This document shows, piece after piece, positions 5,122-22,691 of a stretch of DNA of 48,159 nt. Source of the stretch: Longimicrobiales bacterium (GTDB lineage Bacteria > Gemmatimonadota > Gemmatimonadetes > Longimicrobiales > RSA9); assembly GCA_035461765.1 (NCBI GenBank), contig DATHUY010000157.1, positions 1-48,159 of the forward strand, given 5' to 3'. A model generated the notes under the pieces. The model saw nothing but the letters and a program-made list of their open reading frames with translations, ran no database searches and was not told where the DNA came from. Position 1 is the stretch's first letter; each line of letters starts with the position of its first letter. The translations under genes were made by a program, and so were the position numbers.

Positions 5122-6545
5122 ACGCCGAGCAGATAATCGATGACGTCGTCGGCCTTGTACGCGTCCCGGTCACCGAGGAAGTTCTGCATGCGCATCAGAT
5201 CGTCACCGCTGGTGAGCAGCGCACGCTCTGCCTCGCCGCCGCGTACCTGCGCGTGGCCGATGTTGGCCATGAGGCCGTTGCAGAGACATTTGCGGCCTGC
5301 GGTCTCACCGGCGTCGCCTTCCTTCTTGAGGAAGGTGTCTACCGGCTCCGCCGCGCAGCGGTAGCCGATGCGGCCATCCTCGCGGCGGTAGGCGTTGCGG
5401 AGATAGCCGAGGTCGCAGACACGCTCGCGCTTCTCGTACTGATCGGCCTCGGAGTTGGTGCCCTCCAGGCCGACCACCTTGAACGGGAACCCGGTCGGTG
5501 AAGCCCTCGCGTCGGTGACCACATCCGTGACACCGGCGCGCACCTGACCGATCACCTGACGCTTGATGTCCGACGCGATGCCGCTCTCATCGGTGTAGGC
5601 GAAGAGCGTTCCGACCTGGATTCCGGCAGCACCCGCGTCGAGCGCTGCCTGCAGTCCCTCCGGCGAGCCGGTGCCACCGGCGAGCCAGAACGGGAGGCCC
5701 AGGTCGCGCATGACACCGAGGTCGACGATGTCGCGGTCGCCGTAGATCGGCTCGCCGCGGTCATTGATGACGGTGCCTCCGCGTGGCGGCGCGTTGTGTC
5801 CCCCGGCGGTCGGCCCCTCCACGACGAAGCCGTCAATGCGGCCGGTCGCCTTGCGCGCGAGAACCGTCGCGAGCGAATGCGCAGCGACCACGGGCAGGAA
5901 GCGCGGCCTGTACAGCTCGGGCGCTTTGCCATCCCAGTGTCTGGCGGGATCGAAGGCGAGGCTTTCGCTCTCGCCGCGCTGCTGACCTTCCACGTCGAAC
6001 TTCATGGATGCGGCGCGGCCCTCGGCGAAAGCGTCGAGGGCGGCGGGGATCTCACGAGGGATACCTGCGCCCATGATGACGTAATCGACGCTGGCGAGCA
6101 TGGCGCCGTAGAGCGTCGCGAGATTGGGCATCTGGACCTTCGTCAGGAGATTGACGCCCACGAGGCCATCGTGCCCCTCCTTGGCGAGGAACACCTCGAC
6201 GAAGCTGGCCAGCATTGTGACCTGTTCACGCGCCTGCGTGACGACCTGCCGCCACATCGGCAGCAGTTTGTACGAAGCATTGTCCTCGCGCCCCTCGGGA
6301 AGGAAATAGGCCTTGAGGGCCGCGGCGCTCACCGCCGGCATCGGGAAATGCTCCATCGCGCGACGCACGTGTCCGCCGATGTCCCCGTCCTGGAGGCGAC
6401 GTACGAACAGTGAATCGATCGCGGTACCGGAGACAACGCCGAGCTGACCGCGCTGCGCAACCGCGCGCGCGAGGGACCAGCTCGACACTCCGATGCCCAT
6501 GCCCCCCTGAATGATGGAGGGCGTGGCGTAAGCAAGTGAACTCAT
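5052..6545 (-). CDS. Nitronate monooxygenase (2-nitropropane dioxygenase)-like flavoprotein with Cys-containing C-terminal extension
   Basis: The 497-residue protein is related to FMN-dependent nitronate monooxygenases, TIM-barrel enzymes that oxidise nitronates. Family-like features are the N-terminal IIQGGMGIGVS, VEGPTAGGHN (residues near 250) and the phosphate-binding LAGGTGSPEG and GIQVGTLFAY. It is over 100 residues longer than typical members. The extra C-terminal part has Cys at 377, 397, 420 and 422 (the last two in RKCLCNGL), which could bind a metal or Fe-S cluster. The start ATG overlaps the stop of the upstream gene (ATGA), so it is third in an operon behind a cytochrome b/ferredoxin fusion. 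That context suggests redox work rather than simple nitronate detoxification. The substrate is unknown. Confidence 0.8.
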   Translation of the reverse strand: MSSLAYATPSIIQGGMGIGVSSWSLARAVAQRGQLGVVSGTAIDSLFVRRLQDGDIGGHVRRAMEHFPMPAVSAAALKAYFLPEGREDNASYKLLPMWRQVVTQAREQVTMLASFVEVFLAKEGHDGLVGVNLLTKVQMPNLATLYGAMLASVDYVIMGAGIPREIPAALDAFAEGRAASMKFDVEGQQRGESESLAFDPARHWDGKAPELYRPRFLPVVAAHSLATVLARKATGRIDGFVVEGPTAGGHNAPPRGGTVINDRGEPIYGDRDIVDLGVMRDLGLPFWLAGGTGSPEGLQAALDAGAAGIQVGTLFAYTDESGIASDIKRQVIGQVRAGVTDVVTDARASPTGFPFKVVGLEGTNSEADQYEKRERVCDLGYLRNAYRREDGRIGYRCAAEPVDTFLKKEGDAGETAGRKCLCNGLMANIGHAQVRGGEAERALLTSGDDLMRMQNFLGDRDAYKADDVIDYLLGVQSSESCVVRSGVPASAWAPAEV

Positions 6546-7129
6546 TCAGTCATGCCTTTCGTCGCTTGAATCGAACGCCGGACGATAAAAGTACCCCGCT
6601 CCCGCTCGAGTGTCACCAGTGCGACCTCGCCGGGGGCGATCCACAGCACTGAATCGAACACGAGCGGGACAGCTGTCCCGTTCTCCCGCAAGCCTTCCTC
6701 CGGCGTGAAGCCTATCCGCACATGATGTGCCCCAGGCTCCAGGGGCAGCTCCCGGAGCACGAAAAGGGGGCGGTCGCGCCGGGCGCCGCCCTGCAGAATC
6801 CGGGTGGTATCGGCGTTCTGCGAGTCCACCTGCACCACGAGCTCCCAGGCTGCGCTGTGGCTCTCACACACCTCAGGCGTGCGCATGTGGACGGGCAGCG
6901 CATCGAGCTCGGCCTGTGTCCGCACGCGGCACGTTTCGGTATCAGGGGCCCGCATCCGCCAGGAGAGCCGGAGCAGACCATCTTCGGCGCCCGGCGGCTG
7001 GTAGGGTGCACGCGCCAGCCAGCCAACCGCCAGTGTCATCAGGATTGTGACAAGGCCGGGTGCCAGCCACCGGGCCGCCCGCGACCGCATCCCGCCTGCG
7101 ACCCTGACCGGATGATCTTCTCGAGTCAT
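6542..7129 (-). CDS. Membrane-anchored protein of unknown function
   Basis: A 195-residue protein with one N-terminal transmembrane helix (about 22-39) and a soluble domain outside the cytoplasm by the positive-inside rule. I recognise no family. The soluble part is beta-rich: LLRLSWRMRAP, a Cys pair (CRVRTQ...VCESH), a ligand-free strand WELVVQVD, then LPLEPGAHHVRIGFTP, like a carbohydrate-binding or Ig-type sandwich. The ATG at 7129 overlaps the stop of the fusion gene (ATGA), and its own stop overlaps the start of the flavoprotein gene. It is the middle gene of a translationally coupled triplet, so it probably belongs to the same complex. Confidence 0.7.
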   Translation of the reverse strand: MTREDHPVRVAGGMRSRAARWLAPGLVTILMTLAVGWLARAPYQPPGAEDGLLRLSWRMRAPDTETCRVRTQAELDALPVHMRTPEVCESHSAAWELVVQVDSQNADTTRILQGGARRDRPLFVLRELPLEPGAHHVRIGFTPEEGLRENGTAVPLVFDSVLWIAPGEVALVTLERERGTFIVRRSIQATKGMTE

Positions 7130-8673
7130 GTCAGATCTCCCGTGGATGCGGCGTGGACGTTCCGGCAAAGCTCGACGACGTCGACCTGGTCAGCGTCGGC
7201 GGCAAGCGCCTCGATCTCCGCGGCAAAGGCGAGCACGGACTCGTGCAGCCTGACGCCTTCGCCGAGCGTCGCCTGCACCAGCCGCACCCGGCTGCGATCG
7301 ACACGCGGCTTGAGATCGGCGCTGCGGCCGTGGAACAGGCGCGCCTCCGTCCACGTGACGCCCTCGCGCGTGCGGCCATCGTGTTCCGGGCACCCGGCGA
7401 CCAGCACGCCGCCGGCTCCACCGCGCAGAAGGATCTCCACGGTGGACGAGTGCATCGCGCCGATGCACGGGACATCGAAATAGAGGGCACCCGACCGTTG
7501 CGCCTCGGTGCGCGCGGCGCTCCAGCTGCAACCGACGATCACGACGTCCGTCGCTGACGGCTGACGCTCCGCGAGAAACGCGCGTGCTTCCGCGAGCTGG
7601 TCACGCGCCGTGACGCCGAGAGCGCCAATGGCCATGGGAGGGCACGACCCGATACAGATACCGCAGCTCGTGCACAAGTCGGTCGTGACACGGGCGACCT
7701 GCCCTGCCCTGCCGTCGCTGCGCGTCACCATCCGGATCGCGTCGTACGGACAGTCGTGGACGCATTGCTCGCAGCCCGTGCACGTGCGTTCGTTCACCAC
7801 CGCCGGTGCGGGGAGCGCGCTGACACGCGGGCGCGTGAGCCACGGTATGGCAATCGACGCGGTCATGAGCACTCCGCCCAGCACCCACACGCCCCACGCC
7901 GGCAGCCGCTGTGTGACCGGCAGCCAGAATCCGAAGAACCAGTCCGTCGGCACGTTCTGCGGCAGGCGGAGCAGGTCGGCCGCGGGGGCCATCGGCAGCG
8001 GCCATGCGATGGCCAGCAGGGTGAGCGCGGCAATGGTCCCCCAGAGCACCGGCCGCGACGGCAGCAGGACGGGACGGGCCACGCGGGCGATGTGAACCCA
8101 CACGAGAACGCCGACACCGATCGGCAGCGCAATGTGGGCGAACAGGTTGAGGAAGAAGAACGCGCTCGGCACTTCAGTCTCGCCGACGAACGATCGACCG
8201 ATCGGCTCGCTGAACAGCGGCAGTGCGTCGAGCCAGCGCGCACCTTCCGCAGCAAGCACCTGCGCATGGACATCCCAGACGAGCACGTACCCTGTCCAGC
8301 CGGATGCCAGGACGACGAACAGCAGCACCACTCCGCTGATCCACGCCAGCGCCCGCGGGCCCCACGTGCGGCGCTGCGCATACATCCGGAATGCATGCAC
8401 CAGCGCCGCCACAACAGCCACATCGGATGCGAATCGGTGCAGGCCGCGCAGCCAGCGGCCCGTCCACACCTGGCCATTGATACGCTCCACCGACGCGTAC
8501 GGCGCGCCGACGCGGTAGTAGATCAGCAGATAGACGCCCGTCACCACAAGCACCAGGAGCATCGCGACCGCGATGGCGCCGCTGTGATAGAGCGGGTTGT
8601 AGCGGGACGTGAATGCCCGGTTCATCCAGGCATCCAGTCGCGAAATGAATCGGTAGCTCGTGCGGGGTCGCAT
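7126..8673 (-). CDS. Cytochrome b - 2x[4Fe-4S] ferredoxin - MvhD-like fusion protein
   Basis: This 515-residue protein joins three redox modules. Residues about 10-280 resemble the N-terminal cytochrome b/b6 domain: membrane helices with two His pairs spaced for bis-heme binding (H79/H93 and H180/H194) and a W-W-G-F quinol-site-like region near 245-250. Residues 295-345 hold two CxxCxxCxxxCP clusters (C298, C301, C304, C308; C334, C337, C340, C344). Residues 375-510 resemble the delta subunit of F420-non-reducing hydrogenase (MvhD/FlpD), with C382, C403 and C428. The MvhD part normally passes electrons to or from heterodisulfide-reductase-like flavoproteins. The fusion could move electrons between a cytoplasmic donor and the quinone pool. 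ATG 8673 is chosen because it precedes the first cytochrome b residues and has a GGCGAGG site. It heads a minus operon, divergent from the heme-copper operon. Confidence 0.85.
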   Translation of the reverse strand: MRPRTSYRFISRLDAWMNRAFTSRYNPLYHSGAIAVAMLLVLVVTGVYLLIYYRVGAPYASVERINGQVWTGRWLRGLHRFASDVAVVAALVHAFRMYAQRRTWGPRALAWISGVVLLFVVLASGWTGYVLVWDVHAQVLAAEGARWLDALPLFSEPIGRSFVGETEVPSAFFFLNLFAHIALPIGVGVLVWVHIARVARPVLLPSRPVLWGTIAALTLLAIAWPLPMAPAADLLRLPQNVPTDWFFGFWLPVTQRLPAWGVWVLGGVLMTASIAIPWLTRPRVSALPAPAVVNERTCTGCEQCVHDCPYDAIRMVTRSDGRAGQVARVTTDLCTSCGICIGSCPPMAIGALGVTARDQLAEARAFLAERQPSATDVVIVGCSWSAARTEAQRSGALYFDVPCIGAMHSSTVEILLRGGAGGVLVAGCPEHDGRTREGVTWTEARLFHGRSADLKPRVDRSRVRLVQATLGEGVRLHESVLAFAAEIEALAADADQVDVVELCRNVHAASTGDLT

Positions 8674-8922: not shown

Positions 8923-9099
8923 ATGAGCAGTGACGTGACGAAGCGAACCGAACCGGATCCACAGGAGATACCGCTCGGCCAGCGCCTGTACGACAACTGG
9001 CTGCTGCTGATGATCGCGGGGATCGTGATCATGGCCGTGATCTACACCGGGTGGGGCCTGTGGGAAGTCTCCAGCATGCCGGTAGCGGAGCTGCCATGA
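8923..9099 (+). CDS. 58-residue single-helix membrane protein, probable small subunit of the heme-copper complex
   Basis: This short gene (ATG 8923, GGAGAG site upstream) encodes MSSDVTKRTEPDPQEIPLGQ and then one transmembrane helix (residues about 26-46). Its stop overlaps the start of the CuA subunit gene (ATGA), so it is the first gene of the operon. In ba3-type (B-family) oxidases a one-helix subunit IIa is encoded just ahead of subunit II. Position, size and topology here match that role, though no sequence motif proves it. It is easily missed by annotation with a 60-residue cutoff. Confidence 0.72.
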   Translation: MSSDVTKRTEPDPQEIPLGQRLYDNWLLLMIAGIVIMAVIYTGWGLWEVSSMPVAELP

Positions 9100-9710
9100 C
9101 GATACCGGAGAACACGGAGCGCGCCCCGATGAACACGGGGCTGGTCGCGCCGAAGGGGCGCTGGTGGGTTCCGGCGCACAAGTCCGAGAAGGTCTGGTTC
9201 GGGCTGGCGTTCGCGTGGTGCATGGTGCTGTTCGCGATGATGCCACTCTGGCACTGGAAGGGCGGACAGAATGCGTCGGGCATCCGCAGCAAGGTGGAGC
9301 CGGCAGCGTTCGAAGCGCGGGTAAATCAGTTCGTCGCGGATTATCAGGTGGGGACGATGAACGGTTTTCCGGTGGTGGAGCCGCCACCGGGCAGTGACAT
9401 CTACATGATCGGGCGGATGTGGAGCTGGTACCCGATTCTGAAGCTGCGCAAGGGTGCGGAGTACACGCTGCACCTCTCATCGAAGGATGTGAATCACGGA
9501 TTTTCACTCTACCCGGTCAACATCAACTTCCAGATCGTTCCCGGCTACGACTACGGTCTGAAGATCGTGCCGACGGAGGCAGGCGACTTCGGCGTGATCT
9601 GCAACGAGTTCTGCGGTGTGGGCCATCACCTGATGCTGGGCAAGGTACTCGTGACGAATGAGGATGGAACGATGCCCGGCGAAGCCGTGCAGGCCATGGA
9701 GGCGAACTGA
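9096..9710 (+). CDS. Heme-copper complex subunit II with intact CuA site (NorS / COX2-like)
   Basis: The 204-residue protein has one N-terminal transmembrane helix (about 33-53) and a periplasmic cupredoxin domain. All CuA ligands are present: H134 in NHGFS, then C169, E171, C173, H177 and M180 in CNEFCGVGHHLM. It should take electrons from cytochrome c or a cupredoxin and hand them to the heme-copper subunit encoded next. The single helix is as in B-family oxidases. The start at 9096 overlaps the small gene before it (ATGA) and the stop overlaps the subunit I start (TGATG), showing tight coupling. Whether it serves an oxygen or NO reductase depends on subunit I. Confidence 0.92.
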   Translation: MTIPENTERAPMNTGLVAPKGRWWVPAHKSEKVWFGLAFAWCMVLFAMMPLWHWKGGQNASGIRSKVEPAAFEARVNQFVADYQVGTMNGFPVVEPPPGSDIYMIGRMWSWYPILKLRKGAEYTLHLSSKDVNHGFSLYPVNINFQIVPGYDYGLKIVPTEAGDFGVICNEFCGVGHHLMLGKVLVTNEDGTMPGEAVQAMEAN

Positions 9711-11467
9711 TGGCGACCGTAATCGACAGGCCGGAGCCGGCCGCGGGTGCAACGGCACACGTGTTCCGCACTTGTGAGGTCACTGGGCTGAAGCTGCACC
9801 GTCCCGCGGAGCAGCTGATCAGAGCAAACGCGGTCGCCGCGACGGTGGCGCTGCTGATCGGCGGCATCAGCGCGATCCTGATCCTGCTCACGCGCTGGCA
9901 GGCCGTGCATCTGCTCGAGCCGACGATGTTCTACCGTGTGCTGACGGCGCATGGCCTCACCATGCTGATCTTCTTCATCATCTTCTTCGAGATGGCCGTG
10001 CTGTACTTCGCGGCGGGGCCGCTGCTGAACAGCCGGATCGCGGCGCCGAAGCTCGGGTGGTTCAACTTCGGGCTGATGACGGTGGGGGCGACGCTGTGCG
10101 AGTGGATGATCTGGACGGGCAAGGCGGACGTGCTGATGACGTCGTACATACCGCTGCGCGCCGACCCGCTCTACTACCTGGGTATCATCTTCTTCGCAGT
10201 CGGTGCGCTGCTGGTCTGCTTCCAGTTCTTTGCCACGCTCGTCATCGCGAAGCGAGAGAAGACCTACGAAGGGTCACTGCCCCTGATCACGTTCGGCGCG
10301 GTGGCCGCGGCCATCATTGCGGTAATCACGCTGCTGCACGGAGCCGCGACGTACATCCCGACGTTCCTGTGGTCGATCGGGCTCATGAGTGTGGATCCGC
10401 AGGTCTACCGCATGCTGTGGTGGGCGCTCGGACACTCGTCGCAGCAGATCAACGTTGCGGCGATGGTCGCGATCTGGTACCTGCTCGGCGCGTTCACGGT
10501 CGGTGCCGTGGTGCTGAACGAGAAGATCAGCCGCACCGCGTTCGTGCTCTACATCCTGTTCATCTCGATGGCGTCCGCGCACCACCTGCTGGTGGACCCC
10601 GGCTTCAGCTCGTCGTGGAAAGTGGTGAACACGAGCTACTTCATGTACATGGCGGTGCTCGCGAGCATGCTGCACGGCTTCACGGTGCCGGCGGGGGTGG
10701 AGATCGGCCAGCGCCTGCGCGGCGCGAGTCAGGGCCTGTTCGGATGGGTGAAGCGCGCGCCGTGGGGTGACCCGGGCTTCAGCTCGCTCGTGCTGTCCGT
10801 GGTCGTCTTCGGTTTCGTCGGCGGCATCACCGGTGTCACGATCGGTACCGAGCAGATCAACATCGTGGTCCACAACACGCTGCGCGTTCCCGGCCACTTC
10901 CACGCGACAGTCGTAAGCGGTACAGCGATGGCCTTCATGGGCCTGACCTATTATCTGATTCCGCTGATCTTCCGGAAGAAGGTCGCTTTCTGGCGGCTGG
11001 CGCAGGTGCAGCCGTATCTGTTCGCCGGCGGCATGCTGATCTTCTCGATCTTCATGTCGTTCTCCGGCGGGTTCGGTGTTCCGCGCCGACACTGGGACAT
11101 CACGTTCACGGGCGCGCCATTCGAGCAGGCGTTCCACCCCGCGGTCGATGCACTGATGGGGATCATGGCGCTCGGCGGTCTGATCGCTGCGGTCGGCGGC
11201 GGGCTCTACATCCTCATCACGGTGTGGTCGGTGTTCTTCGGCGAGCCGTTCACCGAGGCGGACCGTGTGCCCGGCGCGAAGGGTCTGCCGCAGGGGATCA
11301 CGCGGCCGCCGCGGGCCGTGACCGTGGCGGATGAAGCGAACCTGCCCACCGGGCGGCTGGGGCAGGCACCGGGCACAATGATCCTCGTGCTCGTATTCCT
11401 CGCCGCGTTCGCAACGTACTACTTCGCAAACTGGAAGCTGCTGTCCTTCGTGTGGAAGATCGGCTGA
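9710..11467 (+). CDS. Heme-copper subunit I of the B-family type lacking the active-site tyrosine; probable sNOR-type NO reductase (NorY-like)
   Basis: The 585-residue polytopic protein keeps every metal ligand: H81 and H398 for the low-spin heme, H396 for the high-spin heme, and H242, H291 and H292 for CuB. VVHNTLRVPGHFH and the HH..VDPGF segment are close to ba3-type (B-family) oxidases. The residue four after the first CuB histidine, a cross-linked Tyr in oxygen reductases (GHPxVY), is Gln246 here (GHSSQQIN). Loss of this Tyr is the hallmark of NO reductases. The order subunit II, subunit I, Sco matches norS-norY-senC of ammonia oxidisers (sNOR). The surrounding genes (DUF542, NnrS-like proteins, an Fe-S regulator) also point to NO. 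An atypical oxidase is the alternative. ctaA and ctaB nearby suggest an a-type heme. Confidence 0.85.
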   Translation: MATVIDRPEPAAGATAHVFRTCEVTGLKLHRPAEQLIRANAVAATVALLIGGISAILILLTRWQAVHLLEPTMFYRVLTAHGLTMLIFFIIFFEMAVLYFAAGPLLNSRIAAPKLGWFNFGLMTVGATLCEWMIWTGKADVLMTSYIPLRADPLYYLGIIFFAVGALLVCFQFFATLVIAKREKTYEGSLPLITFGAVAAAIIAVITLLHGAATYIPTFLWSIGLMSVDPQVYRMLWWALGHSSQQINVAAMVAIWYLLGAFTVGAVVLNEKISRTAFVLYILFISMASAHHLLVDPGFSSSWKVVNTSYFMYMAVLASMLHGFTVPAGVEIGQRLRGASQGLFGWVKRAPWGDPGFSSLVLSVVVFGFVGGITGVTIGTEQINIVVHNTLRVPGHFHATVVSGTAMAFMGLTYYLIPLIFRKKVAFWRLAQVQPYLFAGGMLIFSIFMSFSGGFGVPRRHWDITFTGAPFEQAFHPAVDALMGIMALGGLIAAVGGGLYILITVWSVFFGEPFTEADRVPGAKGLPQGITRPPRAVTVADEANLPTGRLGQAPGTMILVLVFLAAFATYYFANWKLLSFVWKIG

Positions 11468-12369
11468 TGCAGCATATCCCTGAGCCGGCCAGAGAGGCGC
11501 GAGTCGTACTGCTGGGACTCATCGCGTTATTCGTCATCACCAGTGCCTGGTGGGCGCTGGCGTTCTGGCCGGTTCAGGACGGACCCCAATGGCTGGAACG
11601 CACGCGCTACGTGTGCTTCGGCGTGACGGAGAGCGGACTGCCGAATGCGGGTGGCTGGATCGGTCTCACGGCCGGCCCGCTCGGCATGCTCGTGATCCTG
11701 CTGACGGGATGGTGGTCGGGCGTGCCGCAGCTGCTCGAGCGGGCGCGCACGTCACGAGCGGTTTCCGCCACACTGATCATGCTCGCACTCGGCTGCATGG
11801 TCCTGGTCATGGGCGCCGCGGCGCGCGTTCAGCAGGCACGCGTGGCGTCCTACATACCGGAGCCCGGGACTGATATACCGCCGTCCACGTACCCGCGGCT
11901 CGATCGCACTGCGCCGGCACTCGAGCTGCTCGCGCATGACGGCGTCGTGCGCAACCTGCCCGAGCTCCGTGGTGCGCCCGTTCTGGTGACGTTCGCGTAT
12001 GCCCATTGCGAGACGGTGTGCCCGCTCGTCGTGAAGCACGTGCTGACGGCGCAGGAGACGCTGCGCACAGGGGGCACGCCGGCGCGCGTGCTGATCGTCA
12101 CGCTGGATCCGTGGCGTGATACTCCGTCGCGGCTGCCGTCGATGGCGACGACGTGGGGACTGCCGCCCGAGGACGCGTGGGTACTCGGCGGTGCGGTGCC
12201 GGACGTGGAAGCGGCGCTCGACGCGTGGGATGTCCCGCGTACGCGCGACCTGGTGACGGGCGAGGTCACGCATCCGTCGCTGGTGTATGTGATCGATCAG
12301 GACGGCAGGATCGCGTACGCGACGACGGGCGGATCGGCAGCCATCGTGAGCCTGGTGGAGCGGCTCTGA
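11467..12369 (+). CDS. Sco1/SenC-type copper chaperone with an N-terminal three-helix membrane part
   Basis: Of the 300 residues, the C-terminal half (about 140-300) is a thioredoxin-fold Sco domain with the copper ligands C181 and C185 (HCETVCPL) and H269 (VTHPSLVY). It should load copper into the CuA site of subunit II. The N-terminal part has three transmembrane helices (about 12-34, 64-83, 98-118) instead of the usual one, so it may also act as an extra membrane subunit. The start ATG 11467 overlaps the subunit I stop (TGATG), and the stop overlaps ctaB in the same way. The position is that of senC in norSY-senC clusters. Confidence 0.9.
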   Translation: MQHIPEPAREARVVLLGLIALFVITSAWWALAFWPVQDGPQWLERTRYVCFGVTESGLPNAGGWIGLTAGPLGMLVILLTGWWSGVPQLLERARTSRAVSATLIMLALGCMVLVMGAAARVQQARVASYIPEPGTDIPPSTYPRLDRTAPALELLAHDGVVRNLPELRGAPVLVTFAYAHCETVCPLVVKHVLTAQETLRTGGTPARVLIVTLDPWRDTPSRLPSMATTWGLPPEDAWVLGGAVPDVEAALDAWDVPRTRDLVTGEVTHPSLVYVIDQDGRIAYATTGGSAAIVSLVERL

Positions 12370-13238
12370 TGCGGACGCAGGTGCTGAGCGGCTACTACGA
12401 GCTGACGAAGCCAGGCATCACGCTGTTCATCGGCACGAGTGCGGCGGCCGGGTTCATCACGGCCGGTGGCGGCTGGAGCCAGCCGCTGCGCTTCGCCATC
12501 GCACTCCTCGCTACCATGACGATGTCGGGCGGTGCCGCGGCCTTGAATCATGTGGCGGAGCGTGCAGGCGATGCCCGCATGCGGAGGACGGCGGGACGGC
12601 CGATTCCGTCCGGGCTCATCAGTGCGCGCAGGGCGGCCGTATTCGGCTGGGGCCTGAGTGCCGCCGGCCTCGCGACGTCACTCGCGCTCCTGCCGTGGGC
12701 CGCGACGTTGTTCCTGGTACTGAGCCACATCAGCTACGTCTATCTCTACACACCGCTCAAGCGCAGGACCGCGTTCTGCACGCTCGCGGGCGCGATCCCC
12801 GGCGCGCTGCCGGTGCTGGCCGGCTGGACAGCCGCGGGCGTGCCGATCGATGCGGCCGCACTCGCCCTGACCGGTGTCCTGTTCATGTGGCAGATCCCGC
12901 ACTTCCTCGCCATCGGCTGCATGGGCCGCGAGGATTACGAGCGCGCAGGGTGTGTGCTTCTGAACATCGTGGAACCGACCGGCCGTTCGAGTGCGCGCGT
13001 GTCATTCGCGTATGCCATTGCCATGCTCGTGTGCGTCATAATGCTGGGGCTCACCGCTCAGACCGGCGCCCTGTACGCATCGATCGCGGTGACCACGGGG
13101 GCGGCGTACGCACTGTATGCGTGGCGGTTCGTCCGCGAGCCGGGGCGCGGCCCGGCGCGGCGCCTCTTCTTCAGCTCACTGCTGGTTCTGCCACTGGTCC
13201 TCGGCGCCCTCGTCACGGATCTGCTCATTACGTTCTGA
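12369..13238 (+). CDS. ctaB: Protoheme IX farnesyltransferase (heme O synthase)
   Basis: This is a 289-residue UbiA-family prenyltransferase with many transmembrane helices. It attaches a farnesyl chain to heme b, giving heme O. The conserved aspartate-rich loop appears as NHVAERAGDARMRRT followed by GRPIPSG, and the second loop as YTPLKRRTAFCTLAGAIPGALP. It is the last gene of the five-gene plus operon, coupled by TGATG, and faces the CopD-like gene. With ctaA in the neighbouring operon, the locus can supply heme A or O for the complex encoded upstream. Confidence 0.93.
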   Translation: MRTQVLSGYYELTKPGITLFIGTSAAAGFITAGGGWSQPLRFAIALLATMTMSGGAAALNHVAERAGDARMRRTAGRPIPSGLISARRAAVFGWGLSAAGLATSLALLPWAATLFLVLSHISYVYLYTPLKRRTAFCTLAGAIPGALPVLAGWTAAGVPIDAAALALTGVLFMWQIPHFLAIGCMGREDYERAGCVLLNIVEPTGRSSARVSFAYAIAMLVCVIMLGLTAQTGALYASIAVTTGAAYALYAWRFVREPGRGPARRLFFSSLLVLPLVLGALVTDLLITF

Positions 13239-13785: not shown

Positions 13786-15030
13786 TCAGGGCTCCGCGGC
13801 GGCGATGTGCATGGTCGGCAGGGTACGATGGAGGACGTTACGGCGCGCGAAATATTCCTCGACGGGTTCCGCTTCGCCGGCGTCGACCATGCGCTGCCAC
13901 CGGACAGGCACATGCGCGCAGAAGGGCTCGGACTCCATGTAATCGCCCGTTGCGGCATAGGCGCGGGCACGGCTTCCGCCGCACACATCGCGATACTCGC
14001 AGACGCCACACTTTCCCTTGAGACGGCTGCGGTCGCGCAGCTCGCGGAACAGCGGCGATTTCCGGTATACCTCCACGATGTCATCACGGCGGACGTTGCC
14101 CGCGGCGAGCGGCAGAAAGCCCGACGGGTAGATGGCGCCGACATGGCTGACGAACACGAAGCCGTCGCCATCGTTCACACCTTTCGCGCGCCCGACACCG
14201 TCGGCCAGTGAGAAGCCTACTCCGGCGGTGAGCGGGACGGGAGCGCCCGTCCGATCGCCCGCACGGCGCTCTGCGACCTGGCGCTGCAGGATCACCCGGC
14301 GGTATTGCGGTCCGGCCGTGCTCTTGATGTCGAACGGTGCGGTCTGCGACAGGTCGTACATCCGATGAAACACACTCTCGAACTGTTCGGCGCTGGCGAC
14401 GTCGTCCGCCTTTGCCCGGCCGGTGGGCACCAGAAAGAAGACGCTCCACAGCGTGATGCCGAGCCGTACCATCAGCGCGCACAGTGCATCGAAGTCGTCG
14501 AGGTTGTGCATGCTGACGGTGGTGTTCACCTGTGTCGTGAGGCCGATCTCACGCGCGACTTCCAGCATGCGAATGGTCCACGCGAACGAGCCGTCCACGC
14601 CGCGGAACGCGTCGTGGATCGCCGCGCTCGATCCGTCCAGGCTCACCGCCAGGCGTGAAAGACCGGCAGCCTTCAGGCTGCGCAGCACCGGCTCGGTCAT
14701 GAGCGGCGTGCCGGACGGAGTCATGGCCATGCGCAGACCGATTGATGCGCCGTACTCGACGAGCTCGACCACATCCGGGCGCTTCAGGGGGTCACCCCCG
14801 GTGAGCACGAAGAGCGGCCGGCCGAAGCGGCGCACATCGTCCATGAGACGCCTGCCCTGCGCCGTCGAGAGCTCGAGCGGGTTGCGGGTCGTGACCGCCT
14901 CGGCGCGACAGTGCTTGCAGGCGAGGTCGCACGCGCGCGTGAGTTCCCAGATAACGAGGAACGGCGCCTGCTCGAAGTCCACCTCCGCCAGGTCCGGCCG
15001 TCCGGGCCGTGGTGCGGCTGACTGAATCAT
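13786..15030 (-). CDS. Radical SAM/SPASM protein, NirJ/AhbD-like
   Basis: The 414-residue protein has a radical SAM cluster motif CDLACKHC (C34, C38, C41), LTGGDPLKRPD as the SAM-binding GGE-like motif, and a C-terminal SPASM auxiliary-cluster region with C341, C344, C350 and C371. The layout fits the family that includes NirJ (heme d1 synthesis), AhbC/AhbD (siroheme-based heme synthesis) and the TIGR04053-type proteins. The start overlaps the ctaA stop (ATGA), so the enzyme is made together with heme A synthase. A heme-tailoring or peptide-maturation job for the NO/heme-copper cluster is a reasonable guess. The substrate cannot be read from the sequence. Confidence 0.85.
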   Translation of the reverse strand: MIQSAAPRPGRPDLAEVDFEQAPFLVIWELTRACDLACKHCRAEAVTTRNPLELSTAQGRRLMDDVRRFGRPLFVLTGGDPLKRPDVVELVEYGASIGLRMAMTPSGTPLMTEPVLRSLKAAGLSRLAVSLDGSSAAIHDAFRGVDGSFAWTIRMLEVAREIGLTTQVNTTVSMHNLDDFDALCALMVRLGITLWSVFFLVPTGRAKADDVASAEQFESVFHRMYDLSQTAPFDIKSTAGPQYRRVILQRQVAERRAGDRTGAPVPLTAGVGFSLADGVGRAKGVNDGDGFVFVSHVGAIYPSGFLPLAAGNVRRDDIVEVYRKSPLFRELRDRSRLKGKCGVCEYRDVCGGSRARAYAATGDYMESEPFCAHVPVRWQRMVDAGEAEPVEEYFARRNVLHRTLPTMHIAAAEP

Positions 15031-16133
15031 GCGGTTCTTCCGGATGCGGTCATGTTGCGCACGTGATGGAGCCACCACAGCCACGCGCCGAAGATCACCA
15101 GCGCCATGGCCTGATGGATGACGCCGAGGCTCACCGGCACCAGTTGTACGAGGGTCAGGATGCCGAGCGCGTACTGCGTGGAGATCAGGGTCAGCAGGAC
15201 GACGCCGAGCCGTCGCGACGTCGCGTCCGTGTCGGTGCGGAAGACCCGCGCAACGAATGCGGCCACGATGACCAGCAGCAGCGTGCCGACCACGCGATGG
15301 GTCCACTGCACCGCCGACGGGTTCTCGACGAAGTTGCGCGTGATCGGATCGAGCCTGAGCAGATCCGCCGGGACGAGCCGCCCGCCCATCAGGGGGAACG
15401 TCGGGTAGAACTTGCCGGCGCGCAGGCCGGCCACGAACGCGCCCCACACGATCTGCATGGCGAGCACTGCGCCCAGCAGGGCGAGTCCGCCTGACAGCAT
15501 GCGATGGACGGACGCGTCGACGGCCGTGCGCACGCGCTCGATGCGCAGGTCACGCGCCAGCCAGAGCGCATAGCCGAATATGATGAACGCGAGGCTCAGG
15601 TGTGCGGCGAGACGGTAGTGACTGACGCTCGGCCGGTCGACCAGGCCGCTCATCACCATGAACCAGCCCATCACACCCTGCATGGCGCCCAGGGCGAAGA
15701 GCGCGAGCGCACGAACCGTCAGCGCGCGATTGAAGTAGCCGCGCGCCCAGAACCACAGGAACGGAACCAGAAACACGAATCCGATCAGCCGCGCGAGCAG
15801 ACGATGCAGGTATTCCCAGAAGAAAATGAACTTGAACTCGGCGAGCGACATGCCCGTGCGCCAGTCATAGTCCGGAAAATGCTTGTAGGCATCGAAGGCC
15901 GCCTGCCACTGCGCATCCGTCAGCGGCGGTATCACGCCGAAGAGCGGATCCCAGCTCACGATCGACAGTCCGGACAATGTCAGCCGCGTGATGCCCCCGA
16001 CAACCAGCACGGCGGACGTGAGTGCGGCTATGCTCCAGAGCCAGACCCGGACGGGACGACGGCGCTCCTCCGGAATCCGCAGTCGCCAGTCCGTGAGCCC
16101 GGAAGCAGCGGGGATGGCCGAGATGGTGGTCAT
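15027..16133 (-). CDS. ctaA: Heme A synthase, COX15/type 2
   Basis: A 368-residue protein with eight predicted helices. It converts heme O to heme A by oxidising a methyl group. Four conserved His are present in two symmetrical halves: H110 (WEYLHRLLAR), H178 (RLAAHLS), H279 (QWTHRVVG) and H340 (GVIHQAMA). There is no Cys pair in the first loop, as in the alphaproteobacterial/mitochondrial type. The ATG 16133 lies 10 nt after the cupin stop, and the stop overlaps the radical SAM start. Its place in the NO/heme-copper cluster suggests the local complex uses heme A. Confidence 0.93.
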   Translation of the reverse strand: MTTISAIPAASGLTDWRLRIPEERRRPVRVWLWSIAALTSAVLVVGGITRLTLSGLSIVSWDPLFGVIPPLTDAQWQAAFDAYKHFPDYDWRTGMSLAEFKFIFFWEYLHRLLARLIGFVFLVPFLWFWARGYFNRALTVRALALFALGAMQGVMGWFMVMSGLVDRPSVSHYRLAAHLSLAFIIFGYALWLARDLRIERVRTAVDASVHRMLSGGLALLGAVLAMQIVWGAFVAGLRAGKFYPTFPLMGGRLVPADLLRLDPITRNFVENPSAVQWTHRVVGTLLLVIVAAFVARVFRTDTDATSRRLGVVLLTLISTQYALGILTLVQLVPVSLGVIHQAMALVIFGAWLWWLHHVRNMTASGRTA

Positions 16134-16143
16134 GGATAGTTCG

Positions 16144-16452
16144 TCAGGCGGGTCGCGGTGTGATGATCGCGACGAAGCGGAGCGATTCCGTGCCCGCATC
16201 GATCGCATGCGTCTCGTTCGGCTCGAACACGGCGATCTGTCCGGCCTCCAGTCGCGAAGCGGACTCCTTACCCCGGAACACGCCCGAGCCCTCGGTCACG
16301 TGAATCGTAACGGTGGAGGTGCTGCGATGCTCGGCTACGCGCTGTCCGGGCAGCAGGTGAAAGCCGACGACCCGCGCGTCGGCGCTGTCGTACAGCACCG
16401 CACTCGCAGGGCGATCCGCGCGCGTGGCCGGCCCGTCCGTCAGCACGGTCAT
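16144..16452 (-). CDS. Small cupin-domain protein
   Basis: A 102-residue cupin: GFHLLPGQRVAEHRSTSTVTIHVTEGSG is the first motif and GQIAVFEPNETHAID the second. The metal-ligand set is partial, with H42, H51 and H82 the candidates. The ATG overlaps the DUF542 gene's stop (ATGA). Small cupins recur beside NO-response genes; here a second one lies in the opposite arm at 21843. The role is unknown and may be to sense or store a metal or small ligand. Confidence 0.8.
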   Translation of the reverse strand: MTVLTDGPATRADRPASAVLYDSADARVVGFHLLPGQRVAEHRSTSTVTIHVTEGSGVFRGKESASRLEAGQIAVFEPNETHAIDAGTESLRFVAIITPRPA

Positions 16453-16652
16453 GCCGCCTGCCCGATCACCTGCATCAGCTCGTTCTCGAGCGCTACGAGA
16501 TCCGCACCATCGCGCTCGGCCGCCTCGGCCACGGGCGCCGCACCGCCGCAGCACGCGTCGATGCCATGGCGATTGAAGATCGCGACAGTCCCCGGATAGC
16601 GGCGAATGGCTTCGTTCACGGTCAACTGCATCACTTCAGCTGCGTCAATCAT
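16449..16652 (-). CDS. DUF542 (ScdA/RIC N-terminal domain) protein
   Basis: The 67 residues match the N-terminal domain of the RIC/YtfE/ScdA di-iron proteins, which repair Fe-S clusters after NO damage. The signature is RHGIDACCGG with the vicinal Cys pair. The hemerythrin-like di-iron half is absent, so this is the stand-alone domain. ATG 16652 is preferred because GGAG lies 6 nt upstream; ATGs at 16667 and 16676 are possible. It is second in the minus operon and coupled to the cupin. The family link to NO stress is established; its exact chemistry as a lone domain is not. Confidence 0.87.
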   Translation of the reverse strand: MIDAAEVMQLTVNEAIRRYPGTVAIFNRHGIDACCGGAAPVAEAAERDGADLVALENELMQVIGQAA

Positions 16653-16752
16653 CCTGTGCTCCGTCATGTGATCCATACGATGGTGGTTTGCAGGTGCATC
16701 ATCCAGTATTGCGGTTCAGTACCCGTATCCTCTGGCGCGCGGACGACCCCCA

Positions 16753-17193
16753 TCAGGCCATGGGCCTGGTGTGCAGGACCGGCCGGCCGCGCGGCGTACG
16801 CACGGGCGCCAGCGTCTGCCACAGATTGCCGATGAAAAGGAACGCACCGGTCGCGCTCGCCACGGCACCGATGCCGAGTGCGACAGTACCCGCGTCCCAC
16901 GCCGTCGGCCGCAGCAGCCAGCCGCCCACCAGGCTCGCCAGACCCAGGTTCGCCACCCACAGATGCACGATCGCCACTCGCCTGCTGCGCAGCGGCGTTC
17001 CCGTGAAGCGCGGGATCACGTGATACGCGACGCCGAAGATCATCATGCTGACGAAGCCGAGCAGGTTCGCGTGCACGTGGGCCGGCCGGTACAGAATGGC
17101 CTGCGGCGAGAGCGCCATCCACAGCCCGAGCAGCACACCGCCTCCGAGCCACAGCAGACTCGACCGAATGAAGTTCCTGACGAACGGTTCCAT
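16753..17193 (-). CDS. Short NnrS/COX1-like four-helix membrane protein
   Basis: A 146-residue protein with four predicted helices. The stretch RPAHVHANLLGFVSMMIFGVAYHVIPRF has the closely spaced histidines and Gly/Pro pattern seen in NnrS and in truncated cbb3-subunit-I-like proteins, which may bind heme or copper. It is clearly related to the protein at 22236 (shared FI, GLW/GGW, HxHA, GFV and IFGVA, PR). ATG 17193 has GGAAGG upstream; an ATG at 17232 has no site. It is the first gene of the minus arm, divergent from the SufR-like regulator gene. Function unknown; heme-copper relation is by pattern only. Confidence 0.7.
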   Translation of the reverse strand: MEPFVRNFIRSSLLWLGGGVLLGLWMALSPQAILYRPAHVHANLLGFVSMMIFGVAYHVIPRFTGTPLRSRRVAIVHLWVANLGLASLVGGWLLRPTAWDAGTVALGIGAVASATGAFLFIGNLWQTLAPVRTPRGRPVLHTRPMA

Positions 17194-17417
17194 GGTCCTT
17201 CCCCGGGGAGGCCCTGATCGATTGTTCTGCATCAGGCCGCGTATTTACGACCTGAAGGTATGAAATAGGGCGACAGGCGGCCGTCGGGCGGCGGAGGATT
17301 CTGTTGTGGTGGAATAGGGCGGCATCCTGTCAGGAAATCCCCCACATGGATTAACAAGAATTTCTTCTTGACAATAGGCGCGCGGCCCGCGAAACTGTGG
17401 CCAACATGAGAGGACGC
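17194..17417. promoter_or_regulatory. Divergent control region of the two NO/heme arms
   Basis: These 224 bp lie between the minus ctaA arm and the plus SufR-like arm. They hold a palindrome at 17325-17335 (TCCTG, T, CAGGA) and the larger operator at 17355-17370. The sequence TGTCAGGAAATCCC at 17328-17341 resembles TGTCGGGAAATTCC at 8793-8806 in the other divergent region, which suggests a shared regulator. Confidence 0.5.
17355..17370. promoter_or_regulatory. Palindrome CAAGAA-N4-TTCTTG, candidate operator of the SufR-like regulator
   Basis: A perfect 6-bp inverted repeat with a 4-nt spacer. Its right arm overlaps a consensus -35 (TTGACA, 17368-17373) reading toward the regulator gene, and a weak -10 (GAAACT) follows at 17 nt. 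Binding here would block RNA polymerase, so autorepression is likely. Confidence 0.55.
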
Positions 17418-19465: not shown

Positions 19466-19785
19466 GCGAACCGAACGAAGCGGGCGCGGCAGCAGCAGAA
19501 GACAGCGTCACCGAATCCGCTGTGACGGAGGCCCTGAGCACCGTCATCGATCCCGAGATCGGGCTCGACATCATGACACTGGGCCTCGTGTACGACGTGA
19601 ACATCTGCGACAGCGCAGTCACGGTGACGTACACGCTGACAACGCCCGGATGTCCGATGGAGGGTCATATCACCAATGCGATCCTCGCCGCCGTGGGAGC
19701 GGTGCCGGGTGTGGGCGCGGTGCACCCGCACCTGGTGTGGGATCCGAAGTGGAGTCCGGAGATGATCCGGGAGGGTGCATGGTGA
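19462..19785 (+). CDS. DUF59 (MIP18/PaaD-like) Fe-S assembly protein
   Basis: A 107-residue protein of the DUF59 family, which includes SufT and PaaD and helps mature Fe-S proteins. The core is [19 protein letters not shown] plus [11 protein letters not shown] with the conserved Cys. A 20-residue Glu/Ala-rich N-terminus precedes it. ATG 19462 overlaps the previous stop (ATGA) and has GGAGG upstream. In this operon it probably helps build or repair clusters under NO stress. Confidence 0.92.
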
Positions 19786-20615
19786 TCGCCCGGACGGATC
19801 GCGTGTCGACGGTCATCGGCCGCGATGAATCGCTCATCGATGTTTTCGCTTCGCTGTCGCCGGCGTTCGAGCGACTGCGATCGCCGGGTATGCGGAAGGT
19901 CATGGCGCGCCTGGTAACGGTAGAGCAGGCTGCGCGCATGGCCGGAGTCGATGCGGACGAACTGGTATCGAGGCTGAACGGACATGAGGCAGCGAGAGAT
20001 GTGGCTGCCAACACTATGACGGAGGCGGATAACGTGGCGGCGATGGACACGGGATCGAAGCCGGCTGCGCTGGCGGCAATCGACAATGAGCGGATCGTAG
20101 TGCTCGATGTACGCGACGAGCTGCGCGCGGGTCGGGAACCATTCAGTCTGATCATGGGGGCACTGCGCAGCGTGCCCGAAGGCGGTGCGCTGGTCATACG
20201 GGCGATCTTCGAGCCGGTACCGCTGTATGCGGTGATGAAGCGGCAGGGCCTGGAGCACTGGACCGAAGAGCTGGCCGCCGATGACTGGCGCGTTTCGTTC
20301 TTTCCTCCGACGGCTGAAGAGGCTGCGCAGGAGAAGGGATCCCCGGGTTCGACAACGCCGGGTTCGGTCGATGACGCGGCGGATCCGGAAGGCGACGTCA
20401 TCGTGCTGGATGTTCGCGGCATGGAGCCGCCGGAACCGATGATGCGCACGCTCGCGGCGCTCGAGGAGCTGCCTGTCGGTGCCACACTGCTGCAGATCAA
20501 CGTTCGCGTGCCGCAGTTCCTTCTGCCCATGCTGGAGGAGCGCGGCTTCACGTATCACGTGCGGGAGCAGGAGCAGGACCTCGTGCGTGTCTTCATCCGT
20601 CACGGCAACCAATAG
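19779..20615 (+). CDS. DUF1858 - DUF2249 - DUF2249 three-domain protein
   Basis: The 278 residues divide into an N-terminal DUF1858-type helical domain (about 18-70, DESLIDVF...[11 protein letters not shown]) and two DUF2249 repeats (about 104-178 and 207-275), each opening with VLDVR. DUF2249 domains commonly accompany denitrification and hemerythrin genes, but their function is not known. Both repeats here have lost the DHDP motif found in the two single-domain proteins downstream, so they have diverged. The start may be ATG 19779 or the overlapping GTG 19782; both overlap the DUF59 gene's end and share a GGGAGGG site. Confidence 0.85.
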
Positions 20616-20626
20616 AGGAGAATATC

Positions 20627-20866
20627 ATGAGCGATGCACAGCGAATCCTGGACGTACGTGTCATCCCGCCGCGTGAGAAGCACCCGGCGATCTTCCATAC
20701 GTTCACCGCGCTGTCGCCCGGTGAGGCGTTCGTGCTTGTGAACGATCACGACCCGAAGCCGCTGCGTTACCAGTTCGAGCACCAGCACGCCGGTCAGTTC
20801 GGCTGGGAGTATCTGGAACAGGGACCGTCCGTGTGGCGCGTACAGATCTCGAGGACGGCGGCCTGA
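20627..20866 (+). CDS. DUF2249 protein (first stand-alone copy)
   Basis: A 79-residue single DUF2249 domain: LDVRVIPPREKHPAIFHTF, LVNDHDPKPLRYQFE, WEYLEQGPSVWRVQISR. This is a canonical member with the DHDP motif and the WRV ending. The ATG follows an AGAGGAG site. The stop overlaps the next start (TGATG). The family is small, soluble and linked by neighbourhood to NO and nitrite metabolism; no reaction is known. Confidence 0.92.
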   Translation: MSDAQRILDVRVIPPREKHPAIFHTFTALSPGEAFVLVNDHDPKPLRYQFEHQHAGQFGWEYLEQGPSVWRVQISRTAA

Positions 20867-22235: not shown

Positions 22236-22691
22236 GTGTATACGCTCGTTCGCCGCTTCATCAAGACAGGAGTCCTGTTCCTCTTTTCCGGACTGACACT
22301 CGGCGGGTGGCTGCTCGTGCGCCGGGAGCTGTTCGACATCTGGCCGCACCCCCACCTCGTGTCCGCTCACGCTCACGCCGTACTCGTGGGCTTCGTAATG
22401 TTTCTGATCTTCGGAGTGGCTCTGTGGCTGTTTCCGCGCGCACCGAAGGACGACGAGCGGTATTCACCCGGGCGTATCGAGGCCGCGTACTGGATTCTCG
22501 CGCTGTCGACAGGATCTCGCTTCATCGCCGAAGCGGCACGCGCATGGTCCGAGGCATCGTTCCTGCCGTGGGTCGTCGTGCTCGGCGGCCTGGGCCAGAT
22601 CGCGGGCGCCGCGCTCTACTTCTGGGCGATGTGGACGCGTATCCGTCCCGTCGGCAGTCACCTGAGGGAAGCGCAGGGCGAGCGATTCTGA
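22236..22691 (+). CDS. Second short NnrS/COX1-like membrane protein
   Basis: A 151-residue protein with four predicted helices, starting at a GTG 3 nt after the cupin stop. HPHLVSAHAHAVLVGFVMFLIFGVALWLFPR has a run of His matching the corresponding segment of the 16753 protein, so the two are paralogues, one at the head of the minus arm and one at the tail of the plus arm. The His-rich helix suggests heme or metal binding; no function is known. Confidence 0.7.
   Translation: MYTLVRRFIKTGVLFLFSGLTLGGWLLVRRELFDIWPHPHLVSAHAHAVLVGFVMFLIFGVALWLFPRAPKDDERYSPGRIEAAYWILALSTGSRFIAEAARAWSEASFLPWVVVLGGLGQIAGAALYFWAMWTRIRPVGSHLREAQGERF

Follow-up and report, generated by a model that had tools for sequence, protein, structure and literature searches.

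The window analysed here (the whole stretch of 48,159 nucleotides from a Longimicrobiales bacterium) contains a gene for a B-family heme-copper subunit I with glutamine at the site of the oxidase tyrosine. The question raised by this locus is whether the encoded enzyme would reduce O2 or NO and, in the latter case, to which family of NO reductases it belongs. From the diagnostic residue, a tree and the gene surroundings, the locus very probably specifies a nitric oxide reductase of the eNOR family (2 NO + 2 e− + 2 H+ → N2O + H2O). The features of the locus are collated in Table 1.

Table 1. Predicted features of the eNOR locus, with positions in the window.
Feature	Position	Strand	Basis or remark
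208-aa protein, N-terminal hydrophobic stretch, conserved C..(P-x-HMR)..C motif	6542..7168	-	adjoins the fusion
Diheme cytochrome b - two [4Fe-4S] - FlpD/MvhD-like fusion, proposed eNOR partner	7126..8673	-	domain matches, co-occurrence
58-aa protein, apparently single-TM, equivalent to the small subunit of ba3/qCuANOR operons	8923..9099	+	conserved position
Subunit II, cupredoxin, full CuA ligand set H134, C169, E171, C173, H177, M180	9096..9710	+	COX2 Pfam and CoxB NCBIfam matches
Probable eNOR subunit I, catalytic, B-family heme-copper	9710..11467	+	585 aa; ORF intact
SCO1/SenC copper chaperone with N-terminal hydrophobic extension	11467..12369	+	Pfam PF02630, E 5.8e-20
CtaB/CyoE heme o synthase	12369..13238	+	TIGR01473, 226.6 bits, exceeds cut-off
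TIGR04053 radical SAM/SPASM protein (AhbD/NirJ relatives)	13786..15030	-	475.8 bits, cut-off 395
CtaA/COX15 heme A synthase	15027..16208	-	Pfam PF02628, E 1.5e-101
DUF542/ScdA_N protein (domain of RIC/YtfE repair proteins)	16449..16676	-	PF04405, E 2.3e-14

Subunit I and its active-site residues

A phmmer search gave the chains of the Thermus thermophilus ba3 oxidase as the best solved relatives of subunit I, at an E-value of about 1e-44. The alignment spans residues 72-502 of subunit I and places the Tyr of GHPIVY opposite Gln246, which lies within GHSSQQIN, four residues past the CuB ligand His242; the ba3 oxygen reductases carry their cross-linkable Tyr at this position. The two proteins share all metal ligands (H81, H242, H291, H292, H388, H396 and H398 for the low-spin heme, the high-spin heme and CuB, with His242/291/292 at CuB) and the fold: the AlphaFold model of subunit I (mean pLDDT 79) returned ba3 structures as its best fold matches, the T. 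thermophilus enzyme with E 8.8e-20. The exchanges with respect to the latter are Tyr237 to Gln246, Val236 to Gln245, Trp239 to Asn248 and, in the K-channel, Thr312 to His322 (T. thermophilus residue first).

Conservation was examined across 111 Gln-type and 20 Tyr-type B-family subunit I sequences in one alignment. The metal-ligating His residues are near-invariant among the 111 homologues, whereas the site itself separates the two sets: Q245, Q246 and N248 (GHxxQQxN) occur in 111/111 of the close homologues, in which Y281 and H322 are likewise fixed, and Tyr stands at the position of Gln246 in 20/20 of the other sequences. Because of this distribution, Gln246 is regarded as a residue conserved across many phyla and neither as a chance substitution nor as an error. 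The alignment thereby bears out the first-pass annotation in its claim that Gln replaces the oxidase Tyr with all heme/CuB His residues retained. The same residues were found in 32 members gathered by genome search and plasmid tblastn without a sequence-pattern filter, just one of which departs from them, at the last ligand. This exception is a Thermus plasmid locus (L009), otherwise a conserved eNOR, in which the last His of VPGHFH is changed to Lys (GHFKGT), with an expected effect on a heme ligand. In three loci (L059, L061, L065), what looked like a second ORF for subunit I was rejected as a frameshift reading of one gene.

Probable assignment to the eNOR family

According to a published table of the residues at the Tyr site (PMC8756737, Table A4), this position is occupied by Tyr in oxygen reductases, by Glu in cNOR/qNOR, by Asn in sNOR and CuANOR/bNOR, by Gln in eNOR and by Asp in gNOR. 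Given this table, Gln246 therefore points to eNOR. Like known eNORs, the locus combines a B-family subunit I carrying this Gln with a CuA subunit II gene directly upstream, which is an eNOR feature, and with SCO in the operon, as in the ba3-a1 enzymes; it differs from them in its host, a member of the Gemmatimonadota, and in the divergent cytochrome b/FeS/FlpD neighbour described below. The Glu/FeB centre of cNOR/qNOR is not present in subunit I, as judged from GHSSQQIN and the B-family alignment.

A tree was calculated by a quick search of 50 rows, which held no sNOR, bNOR or gNOR sequences and neither the R. marinus eNOR nor the SURF MAG 42 sequences. The Gln sequences fell on one side of a single branch (SH-aLRT 99), with all included Tyr enzymes, among them the host's own ba3 oxidase, outside. 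A position inside the ba3 oxidases, which the first-pass annotation had named as contrary to its reading, was thus not what the tree gave. The window protein groups with sequences from Thermus, Thermomicrobium and Proteobacteria, which are taxa of the published eNOR tree, the comparison being made at the level of taxa and not of eNOR reference accessions. Diagnostic residue, clade and taxa together make its eNOR membership very probable.

NO reductase or oxygen reductase

Retained O2 reduction, alone or alongside NO reduction, with a different Tyr substituting for the missing one, is considered unlikely. Tyr281 in helix VII, invariant in the Gln set and replaced by Phe or Leu in most of the Tyr-type enzymes, might take this role, but it lies ten residues before the first His of the HH pair, and residue 285, six before that His and by its spacing what we take to be the C-family tyrosine position, is not Tyr in the window protein. 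An O2-reducing enzyme would agree with the metal centre, predicted to be copper and not iron, and with the suspicion of some authors that O2 is a substrate of the related sNOR; the host, however, has separate ba3 (Tyr) and cbb3 oxidases. Moreover, eNOR is counted among the biochemically characterised NORs (PMC11388526), and NO reduction with cytochrome c has been reported for the ba3-a1 form (PMC8879329). Classification of the window subunit I as NO-reductase type rather than O2 reductase is well supported, and the protein is very probably an addition to the known eNOR family with its reported NO-reductase activity.

Less probable still is an sNOR (NorY) as in the ammonia oxidisers, with their norS-norY-senC order. 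The locus shares B-family ancestry, a CuA subunit and SCO in the cluster with sNOR and CuANOR (bNOR), and the order CuA subunit, subunit I, SCO agrees; this order, read as an sNOR sign by the first-pass annotation, proved not to be diagnostic, as a ba3-type operon of a Methylobacterium plasmid, with Tyr at the site, has it too (small subunit, II, I, SCO, assembly protein). The site residue separates the enzymes: Asn in sNOR and CuANOR, the B. azotoformans qCuANOR included (PMC3475470), and Gln in 111/111 members of the clade of the window protein. No Asn-type enzyme was found by a W-GHxxxNFW motif search of 395 Gemmatimonadota genomes, and where Asn-type references were sought by plasmid tblastn, with an Asn probe and in five further plasmid loci, all site residues read were Tyr. 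Of the label "candidate sNOR-type NO reductase", the NO-reductase part was upheld by the Gln site and the clade; the sNOR part was rejected on the residue rule (Asn versus Gln) together with the non-diagnostic gene order. A degenerate, inactive oxidase is scarcely credible: one survey did term the alphaproteobacterial ba3-a1 enzymes degenerate B-family oxidases awaiting characterisation, but it predates the activity report, all metal ligands are kept, the frame is intact across many phyla, and the operon with its CuA, SCO and heme synthesis genes is conserved.

For the eNOR thus preferred, CuA would be the entry point of electrons, which the low-spin heme would relay to the heme/CuB site for the coupling of two NO; loss of the Tyr should make normal four-electron O2 reduction impossible. 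A single proton channel of the K-like kind is expected of an eNOR, and protons may be carried by a K-channel-like path, in which S319, T325 and Y257 are kept and the Thr312 and Tyr244 positions are taken by H322 and V253, substitutions that are fixed or nearly so in the Gln set.

Denitrification genes of the host and occurrence of eNOR

The host genome (99.3% complete) encodes NirK above cut-off, a NosZ of the Sec-dependent type (915 bits) and, at a separate gene, a cNOR NorB (L004, matching 4xyd/3o0r). Since a cNOR is also present, eNOR is not the sole NO reductase of the host. The predicted reaction is common to both, whereas NorB has a Glu-based iron centre and no CuA.

The eNOR of Hemp and Gennis is the ba3-a1 enzyme of Alphaproteobacteria and is also known from Thermus, Rhodothermus, Anaerolineales and Halobacteria. 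Gln-type homologues were found here in Thermus and Thermomicrobium plasmids, in Defluviimonas and in many proteobacterial MAGs. Among the sampled Gemmatimonadota, eNOR occurs in 81 of 395 genomes, or about one fifth, and in 43 of 138 genera, and standard annotation masks it as an oxidase. For this phylum, 13% of the genomes with denitrification genes have been reported to carry nir and nosZ without nor. With eNOR being both frequent and masked, inferences on Gemmatimonadota as source or sink of N2O may therefore need checking.

The cytochrome b/FeS/FlpD neighbour

Just upstream of the eNOR operon, on the opposite strand, lies a gene for a b6-like diheme cytochrome b fused to two [4Fe-4S] clusters and an FlpD domain; its likely start is the ATG at 8673, although the mechanical ORF extends to 9507. 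The protein has its cytochrome b fold and four heme-ligating His in common with cytochrome b6/bc1, from which it differs in the fused cluster and FlpD domains. In the structure model (pLDDT 89.5) the membrane part matches the bc1/b6f cytochrome b. All of 91 aligned sequences have the four heme His, and the eight cluster Cys are almost invariant among them; 82 keep the fourth Cys of the FlpD domain, which is Gly in the window's copy. A fused heme c is unsupported by a CxxCH scan, the sole matches of which (L081, L099, L110, L114) fall inside a ferredoxin motif. The accompanying HMR-motif protein is joined to the fusion in several loci.

Whole-protein matching placed the fusion close to eNOR in 56 of 61 large loci, and a stricter gene-order table showed its FlpD part in 55 of 67 loci; the two genes are divergent in Gemmatimonadota and co-directional elsewhere. 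Within this phylum, 77 of the 86 genomes having either gene have both, four having eNOR only and five the fusion only (raw counts, kinship ignored), and in 73 of the 77 the two genes are no more than 3 kb apart. Eight of the nine exceptions were inspected (G146 was left out): in G252 and G325 the eNOR subunits are in fact present at a contig end, G203, G169 and G201 are short contigs or fragments, and G339, G227 and G140 look real. In G140, the fusion, the HMR-motif protein and CtaA lie at about 5.9-9.0 kb of a 240-kb contig (C2, L181) with no eNOR nearby.

Of the 67 loci, 15 have a cytochrome b with an Fer2-FAD-NAD(P)H tail (FNR form) near eNOR; these are all proteobacterial, and just two of them (L090, L093) lack the FlpD form. 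A clean FlpD-to-FNR domain swap was rejected in view of the 13 loci with both, so that the variants are better termed two co-occurring forms.

The fusion and its membrane-anchored partner could, with less certainty than the steps proposed for eNOR itself, constitute a dedicated module for electron supply to eNOR or for assembly of its metal centres. As a tentative proposal, which we hold to be rather doubtful, eNOR would usually be paired with a dedicated transmembrane electron conduit, in which the cytochrome b with 2[4Fe-4S]-FlpD or [2Fe-2S]-FAD-NAD(P)H on its cytosolic side hands on electrons from a cytoplasmic donor to eNOR, with no involvement of complex III or soluble cytochrome c. These genes would also be compatible with a copper/heme reductase that serves in eNOR assembly. 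To judge from the FAD-NAD(P)H form, the cytosolic side may take its electrons from a soluble donor, with which electron input and assembly both agree. No further PF00033 cytochrome b was found in the host genome, and the ActD protein of alternative complex III is present. If the cytochrome b/FeS neighbour does feed eNOR, NO respiration in these bacteria would have a distinct electron input; to our knowledge, nothing comparable exists for any other NOR. No description of the cytochrome b module as an eNOR partner was found in the literature searched, the founding eNOR paper lying outside that search, and a Chloroflexi protein with similar domains is listed in passing in one paper. The partner may already have been described somewhere; this conserved neighbour of eNOR has apparently been little discussed.

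Operon and surrounding genes

The gene order small TM subunit, CuA subunit II, subunit I, SCO was confirmed, and CtaB follows. The small-subunit gene was found in 73 of 83 loci on the same strand as subunit I, about 1.5 kb upstream of it when measured from centre to centre, and the CuA motif of subunit II is kept in 106 homologues. CtaB is also encoded in most proteobacterial eNOR operons, and CtaA lies near eNOR in 14 of 61 large loci. The eNOR of a Thermus plasmid lies beside genes for DUF542, TIGR04053, Rrf2 and multicopper oxidase proteins, the first two of which are common to the window.

Further along the window, two proteins of ~155 aa (16753-17232, minus strand; 22236-22691, plus strand) gave partial matches to the COX1 profile, below its cut-off, and two DUF2249 proteins, one with an additional DUF1858 domain, are encoded at 19650-20866 (plus strand). 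Sixteen of 67 loci also encode, close to eNOR, a second heme-copper-like protein some 460-500 aa long (L055, L069, L074, L078, L083, L087, L088, L090, L091, L093, L094, L104, L108, L111, L113 and L116). It has a GGHVLQF motif and keeps PAHYHGS, apparently without the CuB HH pair in the copies read; the copy of L087 gave no NCBIfam match.
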